Source: Oligoflexales bacterium (GTDB taxonomy: Bacteria; Bdellovibrionota_B; Oligoflexia; Oligoflexales; JALZUQ01). From it: a DNA stretch of 47,893 nucleotides. Location: positions 1-47,893 of the forward strand of contig JALZUQ010000045.1 of the NCBI GenBank assembly GCA_023301465.1, read 5' to 3'. A program made the position numbers and the translations under genes. The notes beneath the pieces were generated by a model, which was not told the origin of the DNA, made no database searches, and saw only the letters and a program-made list of their open reading frames with translations. Below are positions 12,332 through 23,488 of this stretch, piece by piece. Numbering within the stretch: position 1 is the stretch's first letter; every line of letters starts with the position of its first letter.

Positions 12332-14743
12332 TTGGCAGTTTATTCACATATATCGCTGTATATCACTCTTGTTTTTTCTGGTTTGATACTTTCATCTTCA
12401 GGGGCATATTGCCAACAGCTGCAACTGAATGCCCCAAGTCAAGAAAAAGCAATGATAAAACCGGGCCTTGCACTGCTGAACCATCAAATGGAAGCAAAAG
12501 AAGCGGTCTCAAATGCAGATACAAAAAAGCTTTTGAAGACCTATATGCATGTCAATGAGATTTGGCAAAAATCCGTGGATGAAGGTCGGTCTTTAGATGT
12601 TTTCAGAAAATATACAGCTAGAGAATTTGCAAGCCTCTATCAGCGTATTAGTCTGAGCTCAGAAATACGTTCTTCGTTAATCCAATATTTTAGACAATCA
12701 AATACTTCGGTGTTTGTGAATACTCCAAATTACTTTAGTGATTTATTGAGAGAAGTTGTTTCGATTCCCATGAAGTTCACAGGGGCTTCTGTTTATAAAT
12801 ACCTTCAATACCAAAGAAATATAGATGCCGGATTTAGTGGAATTTATAAAGCTATTAAAGAAATGGGTTTGTTGATTCTCGTTATTTTTCTTATTCCTTT
12901 TTTTGCTAGGTGGTCAAATAGAACCGTTCATGCTTATTTGGATTCACTTAGAGAAGATTTTATTAAGAATGCAAGATCTGGCAGCAAGTCAAGTTATACA
13001 TACGCTCTTTGGATTAGGCGGTTAACTCCATATACTGGCTACGGTGTTTTTTATATTGCATTGGTTTTATCGAAAGGTTTCTTAGAAAGTACATCTCTTC
13101 AAAGCCTTGTCGTGGTCATTCCTATTTTAAAGTACTTTGTCATTTATCAAGTTTTTAGACAGTTAATGCGTGATCTATTTGATGTTTTAAGGCGGTATAG
13201 TACTGACAAAAAAGACGGTGATCGTTCCCATTTGATAGTTTCAACAGCAAGATTTATAGGGCTTTTTTTCTTTACTGCATACACCATATTATATTTAGCA
13301 GAAGCTTCTGTAGGTATAGGGATTTTGCATTATCTTGTTTCTAGAACGATGACGATTTTAGCGGTAATTTGTTTGTTTTGGGTAGTTTATCGTTGGCGAG
13401 ATTATATGGTTCCAGCAGCAAAATCTATCCTTCCTTCAAAAATTTCTGATCACCTTGTTCCAAGAACTAGTGGACTATTAGCCCCTCTTTATTGTCTTGT
13501 TTTGTTTTTTTGTCTTATCACATTTATAGTGAGAGATCTGATTTGGGATTTTCTCTCTAACTGGGAACCAAGTAAAATTTTTATCGCAAAATTTTACCGA
13601 AAAAAAATAGAATCTTTTAATGAGAAATCAACTCAAAAAAATTCGTACTCTATGCCACTGCCTGATGATTATTTAGCAATGTTTAATGTGCATTACTCCG
13701 AACAAATGGAAGATTTTGTCGATGTTAATAAAGATGCATTTGAAAAAACTCAGTCTGAAATTTCTGAATGGATTAAAGATAGTGAGTCAGATCAAAGTGT
13801 TGCAATCTATGGTGAAAAGGGTATGGGTAAAAGCACTCTCATGCGTCGTCTAGCTGTAGAATTTGAAAAGCAAGGCGTGAATATTCGGTCTTTAAAAGTA
13901 GAGTCAAAAGTATGCAAAAAAGAGGGTCTTAGAGATTTTTTAGCAAAAAGCCTTGGTATAGAGAATGACTCAAGTTGTCTTAAGTTGATGCTCGAGTATG
14001 ACCAGTCTTTAGAGAAACAAGAAATCATTTTTATTGATGACGCACATAACTTGTTTTTAGGTGAAGTAAGTGGTTTAGAAGCACTTAAAACTTTTATTGA
14101 TGTAGTAAATCTCAAAACTGAAAAAATATTTTGGTGTTTAATGTTCAACGAATACCCTTGGGCGTATTTGAAAGGTCTCCTCGGATCTTCTCAATATTTG
14201 AGGACAGAAGTTCATATCAAACCATGGACAGATACAGCTATTAAAGAACTTGTGAAATCACGTCACGAAAAATCAGGTTACAGACTTTCTTATGATCAAA
14301 TTATCATGGCGACAAGAACCAAGAATTCATATCAAGAGAGCCTTGCTTTTACAGAAGAACAATTCTTTAGAATTTTATGGGAACAGTCTAATGGTAATCC
14401 CCGTGTAGCCCTATATCTTTGGACACAATGCTTAAGGTTTAATGGCGGGAGAAGATTAAAAGTTGGTTTGCCAGAAAAACCTAGTTTTCAACGATTAGTA
14501 GGTATGCAAGATGATTTTTGGTTTGTTCTTGCTTCATTAGTGAAGCATGAAAACCTGACAAGAAAAGAAGTCGTAAGTACGACAAATATTCCGTGGCCAA
14601 GGGTTGCTCAAGCAATTAAAATTGGTTTAGAGCGTAAATTACTATTCAAGAGCAAGAACAACCGATACCGTTTACATTTTTTATCGCAGTCTGAATTAGT
14701 AAAACAATTAAAAATAAAGAATTTTATTTATGGAACAGAATGA
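12332..14743 (+). CDS. Membrane-embedded AAA+/ORC-like ATPase, novel architecture
   Basis: An 803-residue protein in four parts. Residues 1-27 form a signal peptide or first helix. About 150 extracytoplasmic, mostly helical residues follow, then about six membrane helices (near 176-192, 234-248, 258-275, 305-323, 338-354, 382-400). From about 440 the chain is cytoplasmic, with a P-loop ATPase: Walker A GEKGMGKS (494-501), Walker B IIFIDD (565-570) and a sensor-2-like SNGNPRVALYLW (686-697), as in ORC/AAA_22 or STAND-type ATPases. A winged-helix-like segment follows at about 728-795. The TTG start has AGGA 11 nt upstream. The last 14 nt overlap the MscS gene, so the two proteins are probably made together, and ATP-driven control of that channel is an inference. 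I know no described family with this arrangement. Confidence 0.85.
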   Translation: MAVYSHISLYITLVFSGLILSSSGAYCQQLQLNAPSQEKAMIKPGLALLNHQMEAKEAVSNADTKKLLKTYMHVNEIWQKSVDEGRSLDVFRKYTAREFASLYQRISLSSEIRSSLIQYFRQSNTSVFVNTPNYFSDLLREVVSIPMKFTGASVYKYLQYQRNIDAGFSGIYKAIKEMGLLILVIFLIPFFARWSNRTVHAYLDSLREDFIKNARSGSKSSYTYALWIRRLTPYTGYGVFYIALVLSKGFLESTSLQSLVVVIPILKYFVIYQVFRQLMRDLFDVLRRYSTDKKDGDRSHLIVSTARFIGLFFFTAYTILYLAEASVGIGILHYLVSRTMTILAVICLFWVVYRWRDYMVPAAKSILPSKISDHLVPRTSGLLAPLYCLVLFFCLITFIVRDLIWDFLSNWEPSKIFIAKFYRKKIESFNEKSTQKNSYSMPLPDDYLAMFNVHYSEQMEDFVDVNKDAFEKTQSEISEWIKDSESDQSVAIYGEKGMGKSTLMRRLAVEFEKQGVNIRSLKVESKVCKKEGLRDFLAKSLGIENDSSCLKLMLEYDQSLEKQEIIFIDDAHNLFLGEVSGLEALKTFIDVVNLKTEKIFWCLMFNEYPWAYLKGLLGSSQYLRTEVHIKPWTDTAIKELVKSRHEKSGYRLSYDQIIMATRTKNSYQESLAFTEEQFFRILWEQSNGNPRVALYLWTQCLRFNGGRRLKVGLPEKPSFQRLVGMQDDFWFVLASLVKHENLTRKEVVSTTNIPWPRVAQAIKIGLERKLLFKSKNNRYRLHFLSQSELVKQLKIKNFIYGTE

Positions 14744-15542
14744 AATAAATATTCAAGCTGCGATTTTTGAAATATTGCAGTTTGATAGATTGATGGCACT
14801 TTTTGTAGGTATAGGGGTAATTATATTACTTGCAAAATTCGTACGTCAATTAAGCTTAAAATTTCAAAATAATTGGCCATCTAGGCGGCTTATTGTGTTG
14901 CAGGTAGCGACAGTCTTGAATTTTATCTTGTATATTGGTGGTACTGTTTTCCTTATTTATGCTGTCTTGCAACCCCCAAAAGAAGTCATGCTTGCCGTTG
15001 GTGGTAGTGCTGCAGTTGCTATTGGGTTTTCATTAAAAGATATTGTAGCGTCTTTAGTTGCTGGTATTGTTTTGCTTTTTGATCGTCCATTTCAAGTGGG
15101 TGATAGGGTGACGTTTGGAGACACTTACGGTGAAATTGTTGGGATTGGGTTGCGTACTGTAAAACTAAACACTCTTGATGATAACTTGGTAACAATCCCA
15201 AATGCTAGATTTCTTACGGATGTTGTGGCTAGTGGCAATGCTGGGGCATTAGATATGATGGTGGTGATTGACTTTCATATTGCTCTTGATGCTGAAATTG
15301 AAAAAGCTATCTCTATTATTCATGAGGTTGTTGCTACAAGTCGATTTGCTTATTTAAAAAAGCCTTTTAAAGTACTGTCAAAAGAGGTTGTTACTGCTGA
15401 GCGTCTCGCTATTTTATTAAAGGCCAAAGTTTATGTGATTGATTGTCGTTTCGAAAAACAGTTTGAAACCGATATTGTCAATAGAGTTCTTAAGCTATTT
15501 AAAAAACACGAGATAAAACGCCCAACCTTAAATGGTGAGTGA
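14730..15542 (+). CDS. MscS-family mechanosensitive channel
   Basis: A 270-residue small-conductance channel subunit. Three hydrophobic helices (about 17-40, 56-80, 86-115) end in the pore-lining TM3 with Gly/Ala-rich GGSAAVAIGFSLKDIVAS. The MscS signature FDRPFQVGDRV, the beta domain GEIVGIGLRTVKLNTLDDNLVTIPN (in part) and a C-terminal alpha/beta domain follow. It would form a heptameric inner-membrane pore. The length is close to E. coli MscS (286) with no added sensor domain. It starts inside the ATPase gene (14-nt overlap) and ends 15 nt inside the convergent anmK, so it is the last gene of the pair. Confidence 0.93.
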   Translation: MEQNEINIQAAIFEILQFDRLMALFVGIGVIILLAKFVRQLSLKFQNNWPSRRLIVLQVATVLNFILYIGGTVFLIYAVLQPPKEVMLAVGGSAAVAIGFSLKDIVASLVAGIVLLFDRPFQVGDRVTFGDTYGEIVGIGLRTVKLNTLDDNLVTIPNARFLTDVVASGNAGALDMMVVIDFHIALDAEIEKAISIIHEVVATSRFAYLKKPFKVLSKEVVTAERLAILLKAKVYVIDCRFEKQFETDIVNRVLKLFKKHEIKRPTLNGE

Positions 15543-19316: not shown

Positions 19317-19341
19317 GGCGGTTATTGACCGCCTTTTTTTT
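19317..19341 (+). terminator. Rho-independent terminator after udk
   Basis: GGCGGT / ACCGCC stem with a 5-nt loop followed by eight T. It lies 36 nt after the udk stop. Confidence 0.9.
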
Positions 19342-19498: not shown

Positions 19499-19542
19499 AT
19501 AAAAATTTAGTGTGAATTTAAAGATTTAGGGGAGTAGTGAGG

Positions 19543-20190
19543 TTGAGCAAACCTACGCCACATGCATTTGCGAAACTGTTCAGTATTGCGTCACTTGTTG
19601 GCGTTGTTGGACAAAGATCAGTGTCTACAGTTTTACTGGGCCTAAAGACTTGGCGAGACTACTGGTGGATAAACCGAGAGCGTATTGTCATCTTAGCATT
19701 TGTAAACACACTCGTTACTTTTACTTATGAAGCAATTGTTCGTTCTTTATTAGCTCCCATGATGATAGAGAGTGCTTCTTATCATTTTTTAGTAATTACT
19801 GAGGCAGGGGGTTGGATGATCAACCAGCAGTCTCTTAATAATGTTTTCATGACAATTTTTGCTTCCCTGATGGGTGGGCCAGTTTATTTTATTAAGTCTC
19901 GATTCAATCGGTTCTTGTTCTTTGGTGGTTTCGGTTGTTTTAACTCTATTTTATCTCAGTGTGTGACATCTATTATTCGCTTTGGTGGCATTCAAATATT
20001 TATAGCCAGACTTATTTTTGATTTAATTTATAACGGCACACTCAAATATTTTATTTTTGAGCTTGGTCGAAAAAAACTTGCAAACCCTAAAACGTCCATC
20101 AAGGGTTTAGGTGCGGTTCGCATCACACAAGACTTCTCTACCACCTGCATGCGTGTAGGTTTATTAAACTTCTTTGGTTTCAGAGGGTAG
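19543..20190 (+). CDS. Polytopic membrane protein of unknown function
   Basis: A 215-residue protein with about four membrane helices (near 45-64, 101-118, 123-148, 151-173), a 40-residue amphipathic N-terminal stretch and a basic 35-residue tail. I recognise no family. The TTG at 19543 is preferred because GGGGAG sits 8 nt upstream; the GTG at 19537 is only 2 nt from it. It is 44 nt upstream of the exported AAA+ gene on the same strand and behind a promoter-like TTGACA, so the two are probably one transcriptional unit. The protein may be the membrane partner of that ATPase, which is inference. Confidence 0.75.
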   Translation: MSKPTPHAFAKLFSIASLVGVVGQRSVSTVLLGLKTWRDYWWINRERIVILAFVNTLVTFTYEAIVRSLLAPMMIESASYHFLVITEAGGWMINQQSLNNVFMTIFASLMGGPVYFIKSRFNRFLFFGGFGCFNSILSQCVTSIIRFGGIQIFIARLIFDLIYNGTLKYFIFELGRKKLANPKTSIKGLGAVRITQDFSTTCMRVGLLNFFGFRG

Positions 20191-20234: not shown

Positions 20235-22478
20235 ATGAAAAAGTTGCATGTATGGGTGGTAATGGTTACTGCTTTTCTAGCAGGAGTATCTTATGGACAA
20301 GGGTCTTTAAGGTCTGCAGGGTTCGCAATCGGACCAAAATCAATTCACAATAACTGGAAGCCTGAAGCGGCACTCATGTCCGGTTTAGATATCTATGACA
20401 AGCTTGTTTCAAGAATTCAAAAGATCGTTTGTGCTAAAGAAGGCAACAAAAGTGTCATGATTATTTCTGAGCCTTCAGACTCTTACCGTTATATTTTATC
20501 TCGTATTGCAAATAAAGCAGTTGAGAAAGAATGTGCCAAAATGAACTACTATGAGATTGATCAAACAAAAATTGATGCAGGTCATCAGTTTGTTGGTCAG
20601 ACAGATAAATATTGGTTAGACAATATTATCAAGCCAGCATCTAGAAAACCAAATGTACTCTTTTTTAAAATGGATACACTCATTGGTAAGGGAACAAGTT
20701 CAAATGATGAAACAGGTGTTGAGGCTGACTTAGCTTCAAGATTGAGTTCAGGAGAAATCCGTTCTATTGGATTTATGGATAAATATGCATATGCTCGCTA
20801 TAGAACGTCAAAGCATGCTTATGTCATCAACTCTTTCGCTGAGATCATTAATCTTGAAGATCTTACAAAAGCTGAAGTTGATAAATTCACTCAACATTAC
20901 CTAAAAATCAATGCTCCAAACTATGTTCTAACTGAAGAAAAAAGCGATTTTCTTTATAAGAATCTTGAATACTACCAACCAAACCTAAGAGAGCCGCAGA
21001 GAACGCTTGGTGTACTTAAGCTTTTAATTAGAAACAAAGGTTTGAATCCTCTGAATGAAGTAACTGAAAGAGTGAATGTTGAATCACCACATCCACTTGT
21101 ACCAGGAAAAACCATTGAGAAGATTGTGCGTATTTCAGGTGCTAAGAAATTACAGCTTAAATTTAGAAATCTAGATTTAAACCCTAAGTATGATTTGTTA
21201 ACTATCTATGATTTAGACTCGAACAAAGCTCTTGTACGCTTGACTGGAAAAAAAGGTCAGCTAATCACAAAAACTTTTGAAACAAGTGCCGTAAAAATTG
21301 TTTTAAAGTCAAAGAAGTCTGAAAAAACAGATAAATCACCAAGAAATAGTTTTGGGTTTTCTATTAAAGAAGTCATCGCATTAAAAGATTCTGGTTTTGA
21401 ATTGTCTCACGAAGATCTAAGACGTGGTGTACTAGAATTTATTCAAGTTCCTGAGTGGTTTATTGAGAGAGATTACTCTGTTCTAGGAAACTTAGAAAAG
21501 TACTTAGATGCAGAAGTTGTTGGTGTTACAGAAGCAAAGAGAGACCTGTTAAAAATGTCTAAAGTTGGATATGTGGCTGGTCGTACAGATGAAAAGCCAA
21601 TAGCATCTGCACTTTTGGTTGGCCCAACAGGAACAGGAAAGTCTTATATTGCTAAAAAAATGGCCGAAGGCTTAGGCATGCGATTGATTACCATTGATAT
21701 GACTGCCTATAAAGATGCAGGAACTTTCAATCAGTTCTCAAAAGTAATGACAGATAATTTAACGATCTACCCATATGCAATCTATCTATTTGAGGAAATT
21801 GATAAAGCAAACTATGAGATTTTAGATCGCCTTTATTTCTTTATGGATGAGGGTATCTTTTATGATCGTAACCAGAGACCAATTTTTGGTAGGGGTGCAT
21901 TCTTGCTCTTTACTTCGAATGCTGCTCAAGGTGTTATTATCAAGAACAAAGACAATCCAAAACTACGTCAACTAGTGATGGACCAACTAACAAAACAGTT
22001 TAGACCAAGTTTCTTAAACAGGTTTGAAGCGATTTCATTATTTACTCCTTTTACAGATACTGAATATGAAAATCTTGCAAAAATCATGTTATTGAAAAAA
22101 GCTATTAAGATGCAAGAGCGTCTAGGCTGGAATCTTCAAGTGGGTCCAAAAGTAATTCAATTTCTGGGAAAAGATGGTCAAAGTAAGATCTTTGGTGCAC
22201 GTCCAATGGAACGAAGTGTTGAGAATGTCGTTTCTTTTGCGATTAGTGAGTATATTTTGACGCATGGGTACTTTGGAAGAGATAGCTCTATTAGTATTAC
22301 TGCGGTGAATGCTAGTCAAAGAAAGTTTAAAATCAAGGTTGATGGATCTAGCTTAAATGCTGGAAAGACTCTAGAGTTCACAGCTCCTAAAGGTAATAAT
22401 AGCGGTGCTGTAGGTATTCGTCATATGACCATATCTAAATACATCGGGAATGTTTTATCTGAAGCAAGAGAATTCTAA
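20235..22478 (+). CDS. Exported Clp-type AAA+ protein with CUB-like insert
   Basis: A 747-residue protein with a Sec signal peptide (MKKLHVWVVM..., likely cleavage after SYG at residue 21). Residues about 50-270 resemble the first ATPase domain of ClpA/ClpB but are dead: the Walker A position reads SEPSDSYR (79-86) and Walker B reads FFKMD instead of a DE pair. Residues 279-381 look like a CUB beta-sandwich (SPHP start, KYDLLTIYD core, FGFSI end). Residues 425-670 form a Clp second-domain ATPase: Walker A GPTGTGKS (463-470), Walker B YLFEEID (517-523; Glu where Asp is usual), TSNAA sensor 1, FLNRFE arginine-finger region and GARPMER sensor 2. A basic beta-rich tail follows. GGGGGGAAG lies before the ATG. 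An AAA+ machine with an export signal is paradoxical since the periplasm lacks ATP. Eukaryotic torsins, in the ER lumen, are the only parallel I know. Confidence 0.9.
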   Translation: MKKLHVWVVMVTAFLAGVSYGQGSLRSAGFAIGPKSIHNNWKPEAALMSGLDIYDKLVSRIQKIVCAKEGNKSVMIISEPSDSYRYILSRIANKAVEKECAKMNYYEIDQTKIDAGHQFVGQTDKYWLDNIIKPASRKPNVLFFKMDTLIGKGTSSNDETGVEADLASRLSSGEIRSIGFMDKYAYARYRTSKHAYVINSFAEIINLEDLTKAEVDKFTQHYLKINAPNYVLTEEKSDFLYKNLEYYQPNLREPQRTLGVLKLLIRNKGLNPLNEVTERVNVESPHPLVPGKTIEKIVRISGAKKLQLKFRNLDLNPKYDLLTIYDLDSNKALVRLTGKKGQLITKTFETSAVKIVLKSKKSEKTDKSPRNSFGFSIKEVIALKDSGFELSHEDLRRGVLEFIQVPEWFIERDYSVLGNLEKYLDAEVVGVTEAKRDLLKMSKVGYVAGRTDEKPIASALLVGPTGTGKSYIAKKMAEGLGMRLITIDMTAYKDAGTFNQFSKVMTDNLTIYPYAIYLFEEIDKANYEILDRLYFFMDEGIFYDRNQRPIFGRGAFLLFTSNAAQGVIIKNKDNPKLRQLVMDQLTKQFRPSFLNRFEAISLFTPFTDTEYENLAKIMLLKKAIKMQERLGWNLQVGPKVIQFLGKDGQSKIFGARPMERSVENVVSFAISEYILTHGYFGRDSSISITAVNASQRKFKIKVDGSSLNAGKTLEFTAPKGNNSGAVGIRHMTISKYIGNVLSEAREF

Positions 22479-22486
22479 TTTTGATA

Positions 22487-23488
22487 CTAATAAGGCAAGT
22501 AGTCGTTACATACGACTACTTGCTTTAACACATCTTTATGGTACGCCTCTAGTATCTTATTTGTTTTAATATTTGATCCACCTTTTAATAATGACTCGCA
22601 AATTTCAACAAGATTTGTATTATTTGTTTTTGTATATCTCCATGCACCCATTCTTTGGGTAGACTCATTCCATATCATGTAAACACCCAAGTGCTCTTTG
22701 CAAAAGCAATTTCCTGTATCAGTGTTGTTACTAGTATCTTCAGCTGTTGAGTTGTTAGAAGTATTGATTGCAGTATCATCTGGTAAATATGTTGCTATAA
22801 AATCATCTTTTGGTTCGTCTGGTGTTGTATTGACTGCAGAAGTTGGATCAAAGCTTGAAACAAGTCGCTCATCATAATCACCTATTTTTGAGAGCAGCTC
22901 ATCACCTTCTCGATATTTTGCAAGTGATACCGGAGCTTCTTTTGTAAAGCTATAGACTTGGTACTGAAAGTCTCTCCAATATAGTTCATAGCGTTTTGCT
23001 AAATCACTTTGTGCTTCTTTAATTTGAAGAGCCGCTTGAATCTGATCAAGAATAGGTTTTGTGCTTGATAAAGACCTATTGCGGATGTCAAGGGCTTGAA
23101 CTATCTCTAATAACGACAGATTACCAAGCTTTACATTTGTGCCGGCAAATCTACTATCTCCACCTAAATTATGGGTGATTCGAATGTAGTAGTTTAAATC
23201 TCTTGTCCAGTGAGAACTAGAAGAACTTAGTAGGTTCCCGACGTATCCTTCAGTGTTATTCCAAGAGTCACTTTCTGTTGCACAACTAACTTTTAATCTT
23301 GGGGTTGTAGAGTTTTGTATCGAGTCGGTGCTCTCTAAGAAGTCGCAAGTAACAAAACCCGTGTACACCTTTTCAACTTGAGAAAATGAATCAGTATTGT
23401 TGGTTGATTTTGTGGAAGAACTTGTAGAATTCTTTACGCAACTCACTGTTAAAAATACAATGGCTAAAATAGACAAGGTTTTTTTCAT
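22487..23488 (-). CDS. Lipoprotein of unknown function
   Basis: A 333-residue predicted lipoprotein with the lipobox LTVSC, a Ser/Thr/Asn-rich linker, a central mostly helical region (about 125-195), a second Asn/Thr/Ser low-complexity stretch near 235-258 and a C-terminal Cys-containing domain (NCFCKEHLG onward). No family recognised. Its last codons lie in a 12-bp hairpin shared with the end of the convergent AAA+ gene, only 8 bp away. Confidence 0.78.
   Translation of the reverse strand: MKKTLSILAIVFLTVSCVKNSTSSSTKSTNNTDSFSQVEKVYTGFVTCDFLESTDSIQNSTTPRLKVSCATESDSWNNTEGYVGNLLSSSSSHWTRDLNYYIRITHNLGGDSRFAGTNVKLGNLSLLEIVQALDIRNRSLSSTKPILDQIQAALQIKEAQSDLAKRYELYWRDFQYQVYSFTKEAPVSLAKYREGDELLSKIGDYDERLVSSFDPTSAVNTTPDEPKDDFIATYLPDDTAINTSNNSTAEDTSNNTDTGNCFCKEHLGVYMIWNESTQRMGAWRYTKTNNTNLVEICESLLKGGSNIKTNKILEAYHKDVLKQVVVCNDYLPY
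22495..22526. terminator. Hairpin between convergent genes, possible terminator
   Basis: GCAAGTAGTCGT (22495-22506) and ACGACTACTTGC (22512-22523) form a perfect 12-bp stem with a 5-nt loop, 17 nt after the AAA+ stop and inside the last codons of the lipoprotein gene. The following T tract is short in both directions, so it may act in 3'-end protection or terminate weakly. Confidence 0.5.

Follow-up and report, generated by a model that had tools for sequence, protein, structure and literature searches.

Clp-type protein-remodelling motors normally work inside the cell only, and energy-dependent protein remodelling is thought to end at the bacterial inner membrane, the periplasm being held to lack ATP. 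A gene in the window analysed here (a stretch of 47,893 nucleotides from an Oligoflexales bacterium) raises the question of what such a motor might do beyond that membrane. Its product, P0001, appears to be exported across the inner membrane, and the ATPase site of its second AAA+ domain (D2) is intact.

Domain organization and descent

From its N-terminus, P0001 has a predicted Sec signal, then D1 (the first AAA+ domain, which is degenerate), a CUB-like domain, D2, and a C-terminal tail; strand and coordinates of the open reading frame are exact (Table 1). The domain order, the losses and retentions of motifs, a pore-loop deletion, the CUB similarity, the signal-like N-termini, and the linkage to an upstream gene (P0003) are read directly from the sequences. 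Among these and the accompanying results, the conserved membrane partner P0003, the pore-loop aromatic residue of D1, and three more signal-bearing AAA+ proteins on contig C24 go beyond the original prediction for this locus.

Table 1. Features of the P0001 locus and of related proteins (window positions unless a locus is given)
Feature	Position	Strand	Basis or remark
Terminator-like hairpin with T-run	19317-19333	+	Between uridine kinase gene and two-gene unit
P0003, membrane protein	19537-20190	+	217 aa; no family match; 44% identical protein upstream of P0002
P0001, exported (predicted) Clp-like AAA+ protein	20235-22478	+	747 aa; ATG at 20235, stop codon 22476-22478 included; ORF and full-length orthologue P0002
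Predicted Sec signal peptide, residues 1-22	20235-20300	+	Rule and by eye; orthologue signal at same place
Degenerate D1 AAA+ domain, residues 49-273	20379-21053	+	Clp D1 profile matches, alignment, model secondary structure
Cys66	20430-20432	+	Conserved in P0002
Lost D1 Walker A, residues 78-85	20466-20489	+	Alignment with 25 Clp proteins
Cys100	20532-20534	+	Conserved in P0002
Retained D1 pore loop, residues 115-121	20577-20597	+	Aromatic F119 (Y in orthologue)
CUB-like domain, residues 277-382, between D1 and D2	21063-21380	+	Profile searches; Pfam on orthologue
D2 AAA+ domain, residues 416-680	21480-22274	+	Pfam, NCBIfam, PDB matches; model pLDDT about 90
D2 Walker A GPTGTGKS, residues 463-470	21621-21644	+	ORF translation, alignment
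12-residue deletion site (D2 pore loop), between residues 501 and 502	21735-21740	+	Same in P0002
D2 Walker B LFEEID, residues 518-523	21786-21803	+	First Asp replaced by Glu; catalytic Glu retained
D2 sensor 1 TSN, residues 560-562	21912-21920	+	Alignment
D2 arginine finger R596 (FLNRFE)	22020-22022	+	Alignment
D2 sensor 2 GAR, residues 654-656	22194-22202	+	Alignment
C-terminal tail, residues 681-747	22275-22475	+	Weakly conserved; no family match
12-pair hairpin past P0001 stop	22495-22523		Between convergent genes; end of two-gene unit
First C24 AAA+ protein	L072:1124-3991		955 aa; Pfam torsin 28.9 bits (cut-off 27), AAA_2 33.9; D2 pore loop also missing
Second C24 AAA+ protein	L072:4936-7503		855 aa; degenerate D1; D2 pore loop GAPPGFVG retained
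Third C24 AAA+ protein	L073:2409-5783		1124 aa; AAA+ and C-terminal Peptidase_M41 (66.4 bits, HEVGH motif)

Full-length relatives were sought in 56-58 genomes of the class, and P0002 (genome G041, locus L011) was the only one found. It comes from a different family of the same order, is 43% identical to P0001, and retains the signal, the degenerate D1, the CUB-like domain, and the catalytic motifs of D2. Claims of conservation therefore rest on a pair of orthologues, together with the three paralogue-like C24 proteins. Plasmids and viral contigs yielded no full-length relative: the plasmid matches with 80% coverage were rejected as ordinary Clp-type matches with 22-23% identity. The sole public-genome match (L009) is a ClpE-like protein. 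The identity between P0001 and P0002 decreases from the large domain of D2 (57%) through that of D1 (41%) and the CUB-like domain (28%) to the C-terminal tail (21%), indicating that constraint is strongest on the catalytic domain. P0001 is a Clp protein by descent, as given by the PDB matches of D2, the alignment with 25 Clp proteins, and the match of the whole AlphaFold model to ClpA and ClpC across about 700 columns.

N-terminal signal and localization

Signals were predicted with a rule-based scan of our own, not with SignalP. The N-termini of P0001 (MKKLHVWVVMVTAFLAGVSYG, followed by QG) and P0002 (MIKSFIIGGLALSYSGLAIA, followed by AG) both open with one or more basic residues, which precede a hydrophobic core and a cleavage site of small residues; no transmembrane segment follows later in the chain, so that by the rule P0001 has the n-, h-, and c-regions of a Sec and signal peptidase I substrate. 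The rule places cleavage after G17, and inspection by eye places it after G21. Applied to the 62 complete P-loop open reading frames longer than 450 aa in the loci analysed, the rule picked out P0001, P0002, and three proteins from the P0001 genome; the sole other call, a zinc finger of ClpE, was false. The P0001 signal should be noted as the weakest of the set; its hydrophobic core is short and no 19-residue window exceeds the transmembrane threshold. The Sec signal peptide of the original prediction is thus recovered in both orthologues at the same place, and from these signal-like N-termini we infer that P0001 is exported. No report of exported or periplasmic bacterial AAA+ proteins was found in the open-access literature searched.

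According to the positive-inside rule, basic residues before a hydrophobic core stay inside, so the body of P0001 would lie outside with the signal either cleaved or retained. P0001 has just two cysteine residues, which in the model are located at the ends of the helices preceding the first and second strands of D1; a disulfide bond between them is possible. Could the N-terminus instead face the cytoplasm as an anchor, or be hydrophobic but inert, making P0001 an odd cytoplasmic Clp paralogue? The short hydrophobic core and the presence of ATP in the cytoplasm would fit, but the positive charges ahead of the core in both orthologues, the CUB-like domain, the conservation of both cysteines, and the clear signals of the sister AAA+ proteins, of which two are clustered with exported-looking vWA and trypsin-like proteins, make this quite improbable.

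A proposed division of the tasks of a Clp ring between D1 and D2

D1 was originally described as having lost both Walker motifs, and the alignment with the Clp proteins bears this out. Walker A, GEPGVGKT in Clp proteins, reads SEPSDSYR in P0001 and GEPSDTYR in P0002, the FIDE sequence of Walker B is gone, sensor 1 has MD in place of TT, and SF stands where the RRF arginine fingers would be, all of these losses being common to the two orthologues. The region still aligns with Clp D1. A two-protein profile of residues 1-390 matches ordinary Clp D1 domains throughout the class over columns about 65-230, and matches ClpA and ClpC weakly in the PDB (0.0016-0.03). The AlphaFold model of D1 likewise has the AAA+ succession of strands and helices, with pLDDT roughly 60-80. 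In both orthologues, the pore-loop pattern AG-x-(Y/F)-x-G is kept, aromatic residue included (AGHQFVG in P0001 and AGHSYVG in P0002).

For D2, every motif named in the original prediction (Walker A, sensor 1, arginine finger, sensor 2) is confirmed by the alignment. K469, E521, N562, R596, and GAR are kept in both orthologues and their D1 equivalents are lost; T560 of sensor 1 is also retained. Pfam assigns residues 454-677 to AAA_2 (2.5e-18) and ClpB_D2-small (3.1e-7), and D2 carries both Walker motifs, both sensors, and the arginine finger of class I Clp proteins as well as D2-small. The PDB comparison gave ClpB D2 structures at 1.7e-27, with ClpA and ClpB at 1e-27, and the NCBIfam score for ClpA is 136.9 bits against a family cut-off of 993, that for ClpB likewise being far under its cut-off.

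The pore loop of D2 should be noted. A segment that reads GAPPGYVG or a close variant in every aligned Clp protein falls in a 12-residue deletion in P0001 and P0002, and with it the GYVG threading loop is missing. Processive threading through D2 is therefore unlikely. This weakens the word unfoldase in the original description of P0001; the live D2 of that description is supported. With the pore-loop aromatic residue in D1 and none in D2, two functions are split between the domains; P0001 would separate tasks that each Clp ring combines, D1 gripping without ATP and D2 using ATP without gripping. In such an arrangement, D2 would bind and hydrolyse ATP to power ring assembly and movement, D1 would serve as a fixed ring that holds the client through its aromatic pore loop, and D2 should push or prise clients apart instead of threading them fully.

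The CUB-like domain

A CUB-like domain between the two ATPase domains had also been proposed, and the profile searches favour it. The P0002 segment scores 21.6 bits against Pfam CUB (PF00431; cut-off 21.4), whereas the P0001 segment gives no significant match. A three-row profile of the domain reaches the CUB domains of cubilin, C1r, enteropeptidase, and Kremen; it also matches WD-40 repeats at better E-values, though these matches are partial (about 45 columns) and no stretch passes alone. With pLDDT under 50 in this part of the AlphaFold model, the CUB assignment in P0001 is good but not structural.

The nearest relative of the domain in the class is the C-terminal end of a subtilase (L044:1-1809, genome G004), which the N-terminal profile matches at 1.4e-11; the last 100 residues of this subtilase share the E(S/T)PHP start and the overall pattern of the CUB-like segment. 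A CUB-carrying subtilase is on record in Bdellovibrio bacteriovorus (NP_967057; PMC2605481). In both subtilases the CUB-like module is fused to a protease, whereas in P0001 it is inserted within a Clp scaffold, where it may provide an extracellular-type recognition or docking surface.

Comparison with torsins and other Clp-type proteins

ClpA, ClpB, and ClpC (Hsp100 class I) share with P0001 the two-AAA+ architecture, the D2 motifs, D2-small, and the D1 fold with an aromatic pore loop. P0001 differs from them in its predicted export, in the absence of the Clp N-domain and the ClpP-docking loop, in the catalytically dead D1, in the deleted D2 pore loop, and in the inserted CUB-like domain. By its motifs, it lacks two defining features of ClpA and ClpB, namely two active nucleotide-binding domains and the GYVG pore loop of D2.

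Degenerate AAA+ cofactors activate torsins, which are located in the ER lumen and have no pore loops (PMC4999309, PMC5425593). Like TorsinA (PF06309) with LAP1 or LULL1, P0001 is a Clp-like (HCLR-clade) AAA+ protein predicted to lie outside the cytosol behind a signal sequence, has a presumably active AAA+ domain without a pore loop, and involves a degenerate AAA+ domain, which participates in trans for torsins and in cis for P0001. The loss of the D2 pore loop makes this parallel, drawn in the original prediction, stronger than was known then. In contrast to torsins, P0001 carries D1 and D2 in one chain together with the CUB-like domain, its D2 has an arginine finger of its own (R596) and so departs from the LAP1-type cofactor arrangement, and D2 is far closer to ClpA and ClpB (1e-27) than to torsin (2e-4). 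The Pfam torsin score of P0001, 16.6 bits, lies under the cut-off of 27. P0001 resembles torsins by its working parts and does not belong to the torsin family by profile score or cofactor logic. It would be an independent bacterial case of the pore-loop loss seen in torsins, and its combination of a D1 grip with a D2 motor devoid of a pore loop would be a natural experiment on torsin action without threading.

Plasmodium HSP101 has a signal peptide. It is an exported ClpB-type protein that works, in PTEX, in the parasitophorous vacuole (PMC7355975), and thus resembles P0001 as a ClpB-type protein outside the cytosol at a membrane interface. This precedent, together with the extracellular nature of CUB modules, would suit a protein that passes the inner membrane by Sec, then crosses the outer membrane, and acts within a cell of the prey or host, or in the gap separating the two cells, where abundant ATP would do away with the problem of its supply. 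However, neither a signal nor a system for secretion across the outer membrane was identified, and HSP101 has two active ATPase domains, intact pore loops in both rings, and an M-domain, an arrangement that P0001 does not keep; we consider such a role unlikely.

Three further signal-bearing AAA+ proteins in the same genome

Contig C24 of the P0001 genome encodes three more AAA+ proteins with signals by the rule-based scan (Table 1), so putatively exported AAA+ proteins form a set here and are not an oddity. All three retain the D2 Walker A lysine, the sensor-1 asparagine, and the arginine finger. A vWA protein (L072:4072-4902) lies between the genes of the first two; its start is hydrophobic and signal-like by eye and transmembrane scan, and was not called by the signal rule. 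A trypsin-like protein with a signal (L072:7455-8261) follows the second. The arrangement suggests an exported AAA+/vWA/protease cluster. Elsewhere in the class, the 1124-aa protein had no match at E 1e-20, and the two L072 AAA+ proteins matched only ordinary Clp proteins, no orthologue being recognised. The D2 tree joins P0001 and P0002 (100/98); the three C24 proteins sit on branches at the length limit and are unplaceable, so that a single origin of the signal-bearing AAA+ proteins is unsupported.

It may tentatively be supposed, at somewhat longer odds than the reading of P0001 given below, that in some bacteria an entire set of ATP-driven AAA+ machines operates beyond the cytoplasmic membrane, in a compartment that would then be supplied with ATP. 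The set would comprise the CUB-bearing torsin-like remodeller, the two Clp-like proteins with the vWA protein, and the AAA+/M41 protease. Four signal-bearing AAA+ proteins in one genome, with the main catalytic residues of D2 kept, make the assumption of an ATP-free periplasm directly testable.

ATP supply and the function of P0001

According to the general view the periplasm contains no ATP (PMC8573040); a non-zero level is reported for the periplasm of E. coli cells supplied with external ATP (PMC7432876). The P0001 genome encodes on contig C3 an MFS protein (L071:121-1377) that scores 36.3 bits against the TLC family of ATP/ADP carriers (cut-off 21) and 45.1 against MFS_1; in the PDB it matches ADP,ATP carrier 1 alone. 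Homologues with 31-43% identity occur in 13 other genomes of the order. The P0002 genome lacks this type of carrier, and the 13 other genomes, none with a recognised P0001 orthologue, clearly have it; for want of co-occurrence we rejected it as a dedicated ATP supply. ATP might come from whatever reaches that space, by leakage or from the nucleotides of lysing prey, host, or neighbours. Leakage or supply, a prey or host cell, and an ATP-independent scaffold were the three possibilities raised in the original prediction.

The failure to find a dedicated supplier, the supposedly ATP-free periplasm, the dead D1, and the lost D2 pore loop would all suit an exported Clp fold that acts without ATP as a static ring or client platform, its D2 seldom taking up nucleotide, or doing so only prior to export. 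Such a scaffold or holdase would not be expected to keep an arginine finger and a Walker B glutamate, yet all the hydrolysis residues of D2 are kept in P0001 and P0002 despite 57-59% differing positions, and most of them in the three signal-bearing C24 proteins too. We regard a scaffold as unlikely.

The reading we prefer, with a probability of roughly 45%, is that P0001, an AAA+ protein descended from Clp/Hsp100, leaves the cytoplasm through Sec and acts as a torsin-like remodelling ATPase outside the cytoplasmic membrane; from the residues kept, D2 may hydrolyse ATP there. The signals in both orthologues, the CUB-like domain with its subtilase relatives, the strong conservation of D2 and its kept residues, the D2 pore-loop deletion, the three sister AAA+ proteins, the linkage of the gene pair described below, the torsin precedent, and the periplasmic ATP reported for E. 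coli point to it. The reported lack of periplasmic ATP, the short hydrophobic core of P0001, the single orthologue, the low pLDDT of the CUB part, and the carrier that does not co-occur count against it.

Upstream gene P0003 and neighbouring genes

The P0003 gene ends 44 bases before the start codon of P0001, and the pair is flanked by the two hairpins in Table 1. The counterpart of P0003, P0004, lies directly upstream of P0002. This gene pair occurs in 2 of the 58 genomes and neither gene was seen alone, the remaining 56 genomes of the class containing no P0003 relative. Such strict linkage suggests that P0003 may be an anchor, a client, or a regulator of P0001. Its hydrophobic segments are consistent with a polytopic membrane protein. 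Pfam and PHROGs gave no match and NCBIfam only a chance-level one; AlaE was rejected as its family, there being no AlaE match in 54 genomes, that of P0001 included. The structure model of P0003, built from two sequences, has pLDDT 36.

No further neighbours common to the P0001 and P0002 loci were evident. The convergent neighbour of P0001 (22487-23488) has a lipoprotein signal (MKKTLSILAIVFLTVSC) and no family match, and is absent from the P0002 locus. Near P0002, a lipoprotein-like protein (L069:5372-6073, G041) has four near-identical Cys-containing repeats (KTATCLLEGGVWI.APSCLPL...). Farther upstream in the window, an 803-aa protein (12332-14743) has an N-terminal hydrophobic segment, several transmembrane segments, and a C-terminal AAA_22 NTPase domain, and its gene overlaps that of an MscS-type channel (14730-15542).
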